64,000 bases of DNA, taken from NCBI GenBank assembly GCA_902558545.1, contig CACEEJ010000002.1, forward strand, positions 33,276 through 97,275, given 5' to 3'. The DNA comes from an uncultured Pelagibacteraceae bacterium (GTDB lineage Bacteria; Pseudomonadota; Alphaproteobacteria; Pelagibacterales; Pelagibacteraceae). A program made the position numbers and the translations under genes. A model generated the notes under the pieces. It saw only the letters and a list, made by a program, of their open reading frames with translations. It was not told the origin of the DNA and ran no database searches. Below, piece after piece: positions 15,162 to 19,652 of the stretch; positions within the stretch are counted from its first letter, which is position 1; every line of letters starts with the position of its first letter.

Positions 15162-16184
15162 ATGAAAAAATATTTAATTGTTACAGGTGGATTGGGTTTT
15201 ATAGGTAGTAATTTCATTAAACTATTAATAAACAAAAAATATTCTATAATTAATATTGATAAAATTTCTTACTCTTCAAATTTTTATAATTTAAGAGATT
15301 TAAGTAAAAATAAAAATTATAAATTTATTAAATGTGACATTAATAATAAAAAAAAACTAATTAAAATATTTAATAAGTACAAACCGCTCTGTATTTTTAA
15401 TTTAGCAGCTGAGACACATGTTGATAGATCAATTGACTCTGCAAAACCATTTATTAAAAATAATATAGAAGGTGTATTTAATTTACTTGAAGCATTTAAA
15501 AAATATTATAATAAAAACAAAAAAACAAAATTAATTCATGTTTCCACTGATGAGGTTTATGGAGATATACTTCGAGGAAGAACAAGTGAAAGGTATCCAT
15601 ATAAACCAAGCTCTCCTTATGCTGCTAGCAAAGCTTCATCTGATCATCTAGTATTTTCATATATAAGAACTTATGGTATACCGGCAATAATCACAAATTG
15701 TTCAAATAATTATGGACCTGGGCAGCACCCTGAAAAATTAATTCCAAAATTGATTTATAATATTTTAAACAATTTACCTTTACCAATTTATGGAAAAGGA
15801 AAAAATTCAAGGGAATGGATTTTTGTAACTGATCATTGCGAAGCACTTTTTAAAATTTTTAAAATGGGTAAATTGGGCGAATTTTACAACATTGGATCAA
15901 ATAAAAATTATAATAATTTAGAAATGACAAAAAAAATTTTAACTATTGCAAAAAAATATATAACGGTTGGAAATAAAGTAAAAATTAATTTTATAAAAGA
16001 CAGACCTGGTCATGATATTAGGTACGCACTTAATAGCAAAAAAATAAGTAAAGATTTGAATTGGAAAACATCAACCAACTTGCAACAAGGTCTTAAAAAA
16101 ACATTTTTATGGTATATTTCAAATTATAAATTTTTTAAATCTATAAATAAAAAACAAATTACAAAAAGGTTAGGCAATTTATGA
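15162..16184 (+). CDS. rfbB: dTDP-glucose 4,6-dehydratase
   Basis: TGGLGFIGSNF, AAETHVDRSID, VSTDEVYGD, YAASKASSDHLV. Confidence 0.93.
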   Translation: MKKYLIVTGGLGFIGSNFIKLLINKKYSIINIDKISYSSNFYNLRDLSKNKNYKFIKCDINNKKKLIKIFNKYKPLCIFNLAAETHVDRSIDSAKPFIKNNIEGVFNLLEAFKKYYNKNKKTKLIHVSTDEVYGDILRGRTSERYPYKPSSPYAASKASSDHLVFSYIRTYGIPAIITNCSNNYGPGQHPEKLIPKLIYNILNNLPLPIYGKGKNSREWIFVTDHCEALFKIFKMGKLGEFYNIGSNKNYNNLEMTKKILTIAKKYITVGNKVKINFIKDRPGHDIRYALNSKKISKDLNWKTSTNLQQGLKKTFLWYISNYKFFKSINKKQITKRLGNL

Positions 16185-17062
16185 TTAAAAAAGGAATAAT
16201 ATTAGCTGGAGGAAAAGGAACAAGAATGAGTCCTCTGACTAAAGCTGTAAATAAACAATTGTTACCTATTTATGATAAACCTTTAATTTTTTATCCTTTA
16301 TCAATTTTAATGCTATGTAAAATAAAAGATATTCTAATAATTGTGAATAAAGGACAACTTGATCAATATAAAAAATTAATACCAGATGGAAAAAACTTGG
16401 GCATAAAAATTACCTTTAAGGAACAAGATAAACCTAGAGGCTTACCTGATGCATTCATTGTTGGTGAGGATTTTATAGGGTCCAAAAATGTGGCTATGAT
16501 TTTAGGAGATAATTTTTTTTACGGACAAAGTTTATCTGATACTTTAAGAAAATGTACTGCATTAAAAAATGGAGCTAAAATTTTATTACATAAAGTTGTT
16601 AAACCAGAACTTTTTGGTGTAGCAAAAATAGATAAAAAAACAAAAAAAATTAAAGAAATAAAAGAAAAGCCAAAAAAATTTATATCTGACCATGCAATAA
16701 CTGGTTTGTATTTCTTTGATAGTAATGTTGTCAAATTTGCAAAAACTTTAAAACCATCTAAAAGAAAAGAATTAGAAATAATTGATCTATTAAATAAATA
16801 TAAAAGGAAAAAAAAACTTACAGCAGAATATTTAGGTAGAGGTGGTGCATGGCTAGATACTGGCTCTATTAGTGATTATTACAAAACATCTAATTTTGTT
16901 CAGGCTGTGCAAAATAGACAGGGTGTAAAAATTGCCTGCCTTGAGGAGATCGCATTTATAAATAAATGGATTGGAAAATCTCATTTGAAAAATCAAATTA
17001 AATTTTATGGTAATTGTGATTATTCAAATTATTTAAAAAGTATAATTAAGAAAAGTGTATAA
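16181..17062 (+). CDS. rfbA: Glucose-1-phosphate thymidylyltransferase
   Basis: GIILAGGKGTRMSPLTKAVNKQLLPIYDKPLIFYPLS, LGDNFFYG. Confidence 0.95.
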   Translation: MIKKGIILAGGKGTRMSPLTKAVNKQLLPIYDKPLIFYPLSILMLCKIKDILIIVNKGQLDQYKKLIPDGKNLGIKITFKEQDKPRGLPDAFIVGEDFIGSKNVAMILGDNFFYGQSLSDTLRKCTALKNGAKILLHKVVKPELFGVAKIDKKTKKIKEIKEKPKKFISDHAITGLYFFDSNVVKFAKTLKPSKRKELEIIDLLNKYKRKKKLTAEYLGRGGAWLDTGSISDYYKTSNFVQAVQNRQGVKIACLEEIAFINKWIGKSHLKNQIKFYGNCDYSNYLKSIIKKSV

Positions 17063-17912
17063 AATATTATTTACAGGCGGAACAGGTTTTATTGGATCAA
17101 ATATTTTAAAAAATATTCGGTTAAACCATATAGTTTACGTTATTCAAAAAAAAGAATCGAAATCCACGATTTTTAAAAGTAAAAATATTCAAATTATTAA
17201 ATTTAATAATTATAATTCGTTAGCTACCAAACTAAAAAAAATTAAAGTAGATGCCGTTATACATTGTGCAACACATTATAAAAAAATTCATAATTCATCT
17301 GATTTAAAAAAATTTGCAGAGTCAAATATTTTATTAGGTAACATAATTTTAGAAAATATAAAAAATATGGGTGTAAAAAAATTTATAAATTTTACAACAA
17401 CATGGGGAAGCTCCGAAGCTATTTTAAACAATCCAAAAAATTTATATGCTGCATATAAAAATAGTTTCAACTGTTTAATTGATTTTTATAAAAAAAAATT
17501 TCCTTCAGTAAGATTTATAGATTTAGTAGTTGTAGATACTTATGGTCCTAATGATAAAAGAGAAAAATTAATAAACGTTCTAAAAAAAAATTATAATAGT
17601 AATAAAATTACAAAAATTATCTCAAAAAACTTATACATTAATTTAGTTAATGTAGAAGATGTAGTGGATGCGATAAAGATAACACTTAAAAAAAATATAA
17701 AAACTGGAAAATATATTTTAAAAAACACTAATTTTCTAAGTATTTTAAAATTGATAAATTATATCAACAAAAACTCAAATAGAAAAATCAAAGTCAAATG
17801 GCTATCAAGTATTAAAATTAAAGATAAATTTTTAAAGTATAAAATATTAAAAAGTTGGAAACCGAAAAAAAGTAATATAGAAAATATCAAAAAATTAATC
17901 ATAAATTATTAA
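17055..17912 (+). CDS. NAD-dependent epimerase/reductase (possible NDP-hexose 4-ketoreductase)
   Basis: FTGGTGFIGSNI; YAAYK (YxxxK); located in rfb cluster. Confidence 0.8.
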   Translation: MYKILFTGGTGFIGSNILKNIRLNHIVYVIQKKESKSTIFKSKNIQIIKFNNYNSLATKLKKIKVDAVIHCATHYKKIHNSSDLKKFAESNILLGNIILENIKNMGVKKFINFTTTWGSSEAILNNPKNLYAAYKNSFNCLIDFYKKKFPSVRFIDLVVVDTYGPNDKREKLINVLKKNYNSNKITKIISKNLYINLVNVEDVVDAIKITLKKNIKTGKYILKNTNFLSILKLINYINKNSNRKIKVKWLSSIKIKDKFLKYKILKSWKPKKSNIENIKKLIINY

Positions 17913-17922
17913 AATTAAAACA

Positions 17923-19125
17923 ATGAAAAAAGTTTATTATGGAAAAGCTGTATACGATAATAAAGAAATAAATGCTGTTTTAAATGTTCTAAAAAAAAAT
18001 AGCTTATCTTTAGTTGACGGACAAAATGTAAAAAAATTAGAAAAAACAGTAGCTAAACTATTTGGAAAAAAATATGGACTGATGGTAAACTCGGGGTCAT
18101 CTGCTAACCTGCTTGCAATAGCATCTTTAAATTTTAAAAAAGGATCTGAAATCATAACTCCAAACCTAACTTTTTCGACAACAGTTGCTCCAATCTATCA
18201 GTTAGGACTTAAACCACACTTTATCGGCGTAGAAAAAAATAAATTTTTAGCTGACACTTCTCAAATTGAAAAATGCATCAACAAAAAAACTGTTGCGTTA
18301 ATGATACCTAATCTTCTAGGTAACATTGCAAACTGGAAAAAAATTCATTCGATTGCAAAAAAATATGATTTAAAAGTAATAGAGGATTCAGCTGATACAA
18401 TTGGATATACTATTAATAGAAAAAGTACTGGTAATTATTCTGATATTACAACAAATAGTTTTTATGCCTCACATATAATTAATGGTGCTGGTACTGGAGG
18501 TATAGTTTGTTTTAATGACTTTAAATTGTACCAAAAAGCGAAATTACTTAGGGGCTGGGGTAGATCTTCAGCTCACTTTAATGAGTCAGAAAGTATAGAA
18601 AAAAGGTTTAAGGTAAAAATTTCTGGAATTGATTATGATGCTAAATACATTTTTGCTGATATGGGATATAATTTTCTACCTTCAGAAATATCTGCCGCTT
18701 TTGCATTAGAGCAAATAAAAAAATTAAATAATAATATAAAAATAAGAAACAAAAATTTCGATAAATTAAAAAAATTTTTTGGAAAATTTAATAATCTTTT
18801 TTATCTACCTGAACAATACACAGGTGTAAAAACTCCATGGCTTGCTTTTCCATTGGTTATAAAAGAAAATAAGTTTTTTAATAGAAAGCAAATGCAAATT
18901 TTTTTTGAAAAGAACAATATTCAAACAAGAACTATCTTTACTGGAAATATTTTAAGACAACCAGTGATGAAAAACCGTTTATATAAAAAACATCCAAAAT
19001 GTGATTATGTTGCGAACAATGTAATGAAAAATGGTATTTTGCTTGGTTGTCATCAGGGAATGAAAAAAAATGAGATAAAATATATCTGTGATATATTTAA
19101 TAAATTTATTAAAAAGTGCAGTTAA
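17923..19125 (+). CDS. DegT/DnrJ-fold PLP enzyme of the E1/RfbH/ColD 3-dehydratase type
   Basis: SFYASHIINGAGTGG has His at the PLP-Lys position; TRTIFTGNILRQPVMK; lacks Fe-S cysteines. Confidence 0.8.
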   Translation: MKKVYYGKAVYDNKEINAVLNVLKKNSLSLVDGQNVKKLEKTVAKLFGKKYGLMVNSGSSANLLAIASLNFKKGSEIITPNLTFSTTVAPIYQLGLKPHFIGVEKNKFLADTSQIEKCINKKTVALMIPNLLGNIANWKKIHSIAKKYDLKVIEDSADTIGYTINRKSTGNYSDITTNSFYASHIINGAGTGGIVCFNDFKLYQKAKLLRGWGRSSAHFNESESIEKRFKVKISGIDYDAKYIFADMGYNFLPSEISAAFALEQIKKLNNNIKIRNKNFDKLKKFFGKFNNLFYLPEQYTGVKTPWLAFPLVIKENKFFNRKQMQIFFEKNNIQTRTIFTGNILRQPVMKNRLYKKHPKCDYVANNVMKNGILLGCHQGMKKNEIKYICDIFNKFIKKCS

Positions 19126-19652
19126 TAAAAACTAAATTTAAAGGTTTAATTATTTACAAAAGACCATCTTTTATAGATTCAAGAGGTTATTTTAGAGAAT
19201 TATTTTTAGAGAAAATTTTAAAAAAAAAATTTGTTTTTGATTATTTCTCCTTATCTAAAAAAAATGTAATTAGAGGTATCCACATGCAATTAGTTAAGCC
19301 TCAAGGTAAACTAATAACTGTATTGTCAGGGAAAATTTTTGATGTTAGCGTTGATTGTAGACCAAACTCTAAAACTTTTGGTAAATACTTTTCAATTAAG
19401 CTATCTGAAAAAAATAATACTTCACTATATATTCCAGAAGGATTTGCTCATGGTTTTTGTAGCCTATCTGACAATACAATTCTTCATTATAAATGTACAA
19501 ACTATAGAAACAAGAATTCAGAAGTAGGAATTATATGGAATGATAAAGATTTAAAAATCAAATGGCCAGAGAAAAAATATATAATTTCTGCTCGAGATAG
19601 AAAAAACCTGCCCTTTAAACAATTTATAAGCGAAAAAATTATAGAAAAATAA
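19116..19652 (+). CDS. rfbC: dTDP-4-dehydrorhamnose 3,5-epimerase family
   Basis: RGIHMQL, GKIFDVSVDCRPNSKTFGKY, FAHGFCSLSD; non-ATG/overlapping start. Confidence 0.9.
   Translation: MQLIKTKFKGLIIYKRPSFIDSRGYFRELFLEKILKKKFVFDYFSLSKKNVIRGIHMQLVKPQGKLITVLSGKIFDVSVDCRPNSKTFGKYFSIKLSEKNNTSLYIPEGFAHGFCSLSDNTILHYKCTNYRNKNSEVGIIWNDKDLKIKWPEKKYIISARDRKNLPFKQFISEKIIEK

Follow-up and report, generated by a model that had tools for sequence, protein, structure and literature searches.

Gene content of the locus

The window, a stretch of 64,000 nucleotides from the genome of an uncultured SAR11 bacterium (Pelagibacteraceae, contig CACEEJ010000002.1), contains a gene cluster in the order RmlB, RmlA, SDR, candidate 3-dehydratase and RmlC (Table 1), which recurs in SAR11. 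The candidate gene begins with ATG and encodes a protein of 400 amino acids, and the opposite strand is closed over this interval. Within five genes of the homologs at 80 SAR11 loci, members of the RmlC family (40 loci), RmlA (34), SDR (32) and RmlB (31) were detected, RmlC mostly immediately downstream and the SDR immediately upstream in about 32 of the 80; these context genes are missing around about half of the SAR11 copies and most of the viral copies.

Table 1. Position of the candidate 3-dehydratase gene, its active-site motifs and the neighboring sugar genes in the window.
Feature	Position	Strand	Evidence
RmlB, dTDP-glucose 4,6-dehydratase; predicted substrate source	15162..16184	+	TIGR01181, 410.6 bits, cut-off 365
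RmlA, glucose-1-phosphate thymidylyltransferase	16181..17062	+	TIGR01207, 349 bits, just below cut-off 361
SDR (Epimerase family), YxxxK (YAAYK); predicted 4-ketoreductase	17055..17912	+	
His-type DegT/DnrJ/EryC1 enzyme, SH clade; predicted Fe-S-free NDP-4-keto-6-deoxyhexose 3-dehydratase	17923..19125	+	
EDSADTIG, residues 154-161; D155 at pyridine-N position, A157 in E1 Cys193 column	18382..18405	+	alignment
Active-site loop SFYASHIINGAGTGG, residues 179-193; His184 at the place of the PLP Lys	18457..18501	+	
WGRSSAHFNESESIEKRFK, residues 212-230; without Cys, equivalent of E1 cluster loop WGRDCxC...C	18556..18612	+	alignment
RmlC-type dTDP-4-keto sugar 3,5-epimerase; predicted to epimerise C5 (or C3/C5) in this pathway	19116..19652	+	TIGR01221, 189 bits, cut-off 156

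A rhamnose pathway was considered and rejected, as no RmlD scored above cut-off in four gene-bearing genomes, a result whose reading as absolute absence is limited by the 83% completeness of the genome containing the window. At four related SAR11 loci (L032, L039, L042, L080), an additional gene encoding a putative methyltransferase of roughly 400 amino acids, with a weak match to UbiG only, lies beside the 3-dehydratase gene, and three of these loci have two RmlC copies next to it.

Regarding protein family, the candidate matches Pfam PF01041 (DegT/DnrJ/EryC1; 250.8 bits, cut-off 19.8), and its nearest NCBIfam model is RfbH (303.8 bits, under the curated cut-off of 423). With a profile of close relatives, the best PDB match was E1 (292 bits), followed by ColD (240 bits) and other sugar transaminases (188 bits or less), while PDB 9wvy, named a 3-dehydratase, gave 133 bits, within the range of the Lys aminotransferases. 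The AlphaFold2 model (pLDDT 92) was matched by Foldseek to E1 (TM 0.90), then to ColD (0.85), with perosamine synthase also among the matches; the structure prediction suggested in the initial annotation thus came out in favor of an E1/ColD-like fold.

Active site and cluster ligands

The window protein belongs to a group termed here the SH clade after its SFY[A/G]SH motif, the alignment of which comprises 177 members, 99 cellular and 78 from viral contigs. The initial annotation had noted His in place of the PLP-binding Lys and the replacement of all four [2Fe-2S] cysteines of E1, and both observations hold in the alignment. H184 of SFYASHIINGAGTGG falls in the column of E1 H220 and ColD H188, which is His in 177/177 SH-clade members and Lys in 22/22 aminotransferases, so that the Schiff-base Lys of the DegT sugar aminotransferases is absent. 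A Schiff-base Lys elsewhere was also sought and rejected: the only near-invariant Lys columns of the clade are K241, which E1 has as well, and K49, which is far from the motif in sequence.

The E1 cluster columns C193, C251, C253 and C261, all Cys in 51/51 E1-clade rows, read A157, S216, H218 and I225 in the window protein. Across the SH clade, Cys occupies the C193 column in 3 of 177 rows, and the other three columns contain mostly Ser/Gly, Thr and other non-Cys residues, Cys not being among the common ones. A substitute set of cysteines was likewise rejected, no Cys column exceeding about 62% in the 177 aligned members. This cysteine/His pattern is not a product of chance or sequencing error because it is common to 177 homologs from many genomes and viral contigs. 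One subgroup (L190, L191, L281) has the motifs SFSIFH and EDSCDT, with Phe preceding the His and Cys at the E1 C193 column; no sugar genes were recognised in its surroundings.

Other residues combine features of both known types. S59, R336 and G341-N342, common to nearly all His-type enzymes and not to the Lys aminotransferases, are retained, and the SH clade mixes E1-like F84, D158, F339, K241 and WGR with ColD-like S183, which precedes His184 as in ColD, and H377. The second His of the E1/ColD pair (HH) is Ile (I185) in the window protein, and its loop from the His to GG is longer than those of ColD and E1; the geometry of the catalytic base may therefore differ from that of both enzymes.

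Phylogeny and distribution

The relatives came from SAR11 and further alphaproteobacterial genomes, viral contigs and E1-bearing genomes, the viral ones being recovered with an alignment as query, as a single-sequence viral scan gave none. In the tree, which contains no SpnQ sequence, the His-type enzymes are all united in a single clade apart from the Lys aminotransferases (support 100/99). Within it, the SH-clade and E1 members make up complete and mutually separate groups (100/100 and 100/99, respectively), with ColD as a third group. The window protein lies outside both the E1 and the ColD clades. The view taken in the initial annotation of an E1 with replaced cysteines does not agree with this placement: since the E1 clade is complete without it, the window protein did not arise from an E1 of that clade by loss of the cluster, and a degenerate E1 was rejected.

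The sister grouping of the SH clade and ColD has support of 91/79 only, and topology tests left the alternatives SH+E1 (AU p 0.27) and E1+ColD (AU p 0.10) standing beside it. As ColD also has no cluster, loss of the Fe-S cluster in the SH clade is no more likely than its gain in E1, and the SH clade offers a natural experiment on cluster gain or loss.

Presence of the gene varies across the order: it was detected in 17 of 147 Pelagibacterales genomes at E<=1e-100. A deep His-type branch (L264, G479:C1), with the sequence SFHVAHNITTGEGG, was placed outside E1, ColD and the SH clade by one tree; a second tree joined it weakly to E1. In one viral contig (L163:4786-7101), two 3-dehydratase-like genes stand in tandem, their products sharing about 25% and 43% identity with the window protein.

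Reductase genes and CDP-glucose operons

No E3-type gene adjoins the window gene, as had been noted before, and PF00175 (NAD_binding_1, E3-type reductase) was detected neither anywhere in the 83% complete genome itself nor in a complete relative. The domain is missing from 10 of 12 SH-clade genomes (this one and 9 of 11 others) and 13 of the 15 Fe-S E1 genomes have it, four of them within a few kb of E1. Its absence is not decisive as evidence, since 2 of the 15 E1 genomes also have no PF00175 and SAR11 genomes are small.

In three small alphaproteobacterial genomes (L316, L319, L320), in which PF00175 was not detected, the SH-clade gene directly follows RfbF-RfbG, in the slot of E1, with the glucose-1-phosphate cytidylyltransferases and CDP-glucose 4,6-dehydratases all above cut-offs. 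Genome G254 contains an SH-clade member together with an Fe-S E1 (L282) and PF00175 proteins. The dTDP sugar proposed in the initial annotation agrees with the dTDP-type operon of the window, but confinement of the lineage to dTDP sugars is not supported, as these three cellular members lie in CDP-glucose operons.

Viral loci

Two viral groups carry the gene, the more distant (clade B) at about 41% identity. A ThDP enzyme gene is found nearby in 19 of 58 clade-B viral loci, 15 with a member of an acetolactate-synthase-like family and four with a PDH-E1-like pair. The ThDP protein of locus L122 matches JanthE best (PDB 8rph; 558 bits, the runner-up scoring 269), and the rare CDG motif of JanthE (PMC12188165) is present in more than half of the members of the acetolactate-synthase-like family. 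The known acceptor of the YerE/JanthE-like class is a 4-keto-3,6-dideoxy sugar: YerE and ErwE use CDP-4-keto-3,6-dideoxyglucose, to which ErwE couples 4-hydroxy-2-oxo acids (PMC12247030). The viral ThDP neighbors thus fit a 3-deoxy-4-keto sugar as product, as contextual support of an independent kind.

At L122 (5995-11752) and L125, genes encoding the 3-dehydratase, an RmlB-like protein, a JanthE/YerE-like ThDP enzyme, an acetaldehyde dehydrogenase and a 4-hydroxy-2-oxovalerate aldolase follow in a row, the last two families scoring above cut-offs in the L122 proteins, which were scanned. The aldehyde dehydrogenase and aldolase genes are consistent with ErwE chemistry, and the row looks like a phage-borne, erwiniose-like pathway of branched-sugar synthesis. 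At four other viral loci (L140, L143, L146, L167) PanB, ketopantoate hydroxymethyltransferase, adjoins the ThDP enzyme and the 3-dehydratase (identified by scanning the L140 protein, and by membership of the same sequence cluster for the others), and an unusual branch donor may be produced by these loci. At L124, L130, L131 and L135, a pair of short genes close to the 3-dehydratase has the look of a split gene; in L124 the first matches the PDH E1 alpha subunit and the second was judged from sequence alone.

Proposed function and alternatives

Regarding function, no SH-clade member of known activity was found in the open-access literature. Judged by sequence, removal of the 3-hydroxyl of an activated sugar is most likely the reaction of this enzyme, which is encoded by the SAR11 bacterium, many relatives and many uncultured marine phages. 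From the sequence features, clade, predicted fold, operon and missing reductase domain we infer an activity, amino donor, substrate, order of steps and product as follows. An amino donor, probably L-glutamate, would convert PLP to PMP, and this would react with the C4 ketone of the dTDP-4-keto-6-deoxyhexose made by RmlB to form a ketimine; His184 would then take the C4' proton and the C3-OH depart. With no [2Fe-2S] cluster or reductase, the unsaturated adduct would be hydrolysed to dTDP-4-keto-3,6-dideoxyhexose, ammonia and PLP, after which RmlC would epimerise C5 and the SDR reduce C4, to yield a dTDP-3,6-dideoxyhexose destined for surface polysaccharide. The same logic of 4,6-dehydratase, PLP-dependent C3-dehydratase, epimerase and C4-reductase has been demonstrated for the GDP-3,6-dideoxyheptoses of Campylobacter (PMC10440746). 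As neither cluster ligands nor a reductase domain were detected, ColD-style hydrolysis appears the most economical reading, and this part of the initial proposal, with the His-type DegT fold and the dTDP-sugar operon, is retained. The window protein is thus likely to be a PMP-dependent 3-dehydratase of nucleotide sugars, belonging to a third lineage in addition to E1 and ColD, with hydrolytic release and here acting on a dTDP sugar.

The shared fold family and the labels of Pfam (DegT/DnrJ/EryC1) and PHROG ('aminotransferase') would also suit a sugar 4-aminotransferase in which the C4 ketone receives the amino group of PMP and His or some other base does the work of Lys; SpnQ can transaminate when its reductase is missing (PMC8987622), so the His alone does not exclude amino transfer. 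Such an activity is nevertheless improbable in view of the invariant His and the lysine pattern described above, the separation of the SH clade from every Lys enzyme in the tree, the YerE/JanthE-like ThDP neighbors and the occupation of the E1 position in CDP operons. Equally doubtful is a different PMP reaction on these sugars (for example epimerisation at C3 or C5, or isomerisation), or 3-dehydration after RmlC on dTDP-4-keto-L-rhamnose: RmlC adjoins and the order of steps is not readable from sequence, but epimerisation is already covered by RmlC, and the characterised His-type relatives named in the literature found (E1, ColD, SpnQ and the Campylobacter C3-dehydratases) are all 3-dehydratases (PMC8987622, PMC10440746). 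Least probable of all is an E1-like reductive release with electrons given directly by free ferredoxin or flavodoxin, which the ferredoxin-type domains of the genome and the E1-like residues would allow, but which would proceed with no cluster ligands, conserved substitute cysteines or NAD_binding_1 reductase domain, whereas hydrolysis requires no extra partner.

Beyond the 3-dehydratase in the window, the evidence leans, with less assurance, towards a third PMP-dependent lineage, shared by streamlined marine bacteria and phages of the sea, that does the work of E1 and E3 on CDP- and dTDP-sugars without Fe-S cluster or reductase and feeds pathways of 3,6-dideoxy and, in phages, branched-chain sugars. 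This predicts that SAR11 surfaces carry 3,6-dideoxyhexoses and that marine phages synthesise branched sugars.

Comparison with known 3-dehydratases

E1/RfbH (Yersinia CDP-6-deoxy-L-threo-D-glycero-4-hexulose 3-dehydrase, PDB 3bcx) is the top profile and fold match, and shares with the window protein the catalytic His, F84, D158, F339, K241 and WGR...YD.K, while in three genomes the SH clade takes its place in RfbF-RfbG-X; unlike E1, the window protein has a single His and no [2Fe-2S] cysteines, E3-type reductase or N-terminal extension, and belongs to a separate clade. With ColD (GDP-4-keto-6-deoxymannose 3-dehydratase, PDB 2gms) and the Campylobacter GDP-heptose C3-dehydratases it shares the Ser-His pair (S183-H184), a GxH motif near the C terminus, the lack of an Fe-S cluster and, by prediction, the hydrolytic release; in ColD the intermediate is hydrolysed and PMP regenerated from glutamate (PMC8987622). 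It differs from these enzymes in the sugar type of the gene context (dTDP in the window operon, dTDP or CDP across the clade, versus GDP), in D158/F84/F339 versus E/W/other, in its longer active-site loop and in its separate clade. SpnQ (dTDP-4-keto-2,6-dideoxyglucose 3-dehydratase) acts on a dTDP sugar, as predicted here, but has a [2Fe-2S] cluster and ferredoxin/flavodoxin reductases, and both E1 and SpnQ require cluster and reductase (PMC8987622). The described CDP- and dTDP-sugar 3-dehydratases, E1 and SpnQ, thus work with an Fe-S cluster and electron partners, hydrolysis in the literature found being limited to the GDP-sugar enzymes of the ColD type (PMC8987622, PMC10440746), and an Fe-S-free lineage in the slot of E1 makes it testable whether C3 deoxygenation of CDP- and dTDP-sugars needs iron and electron transfer.
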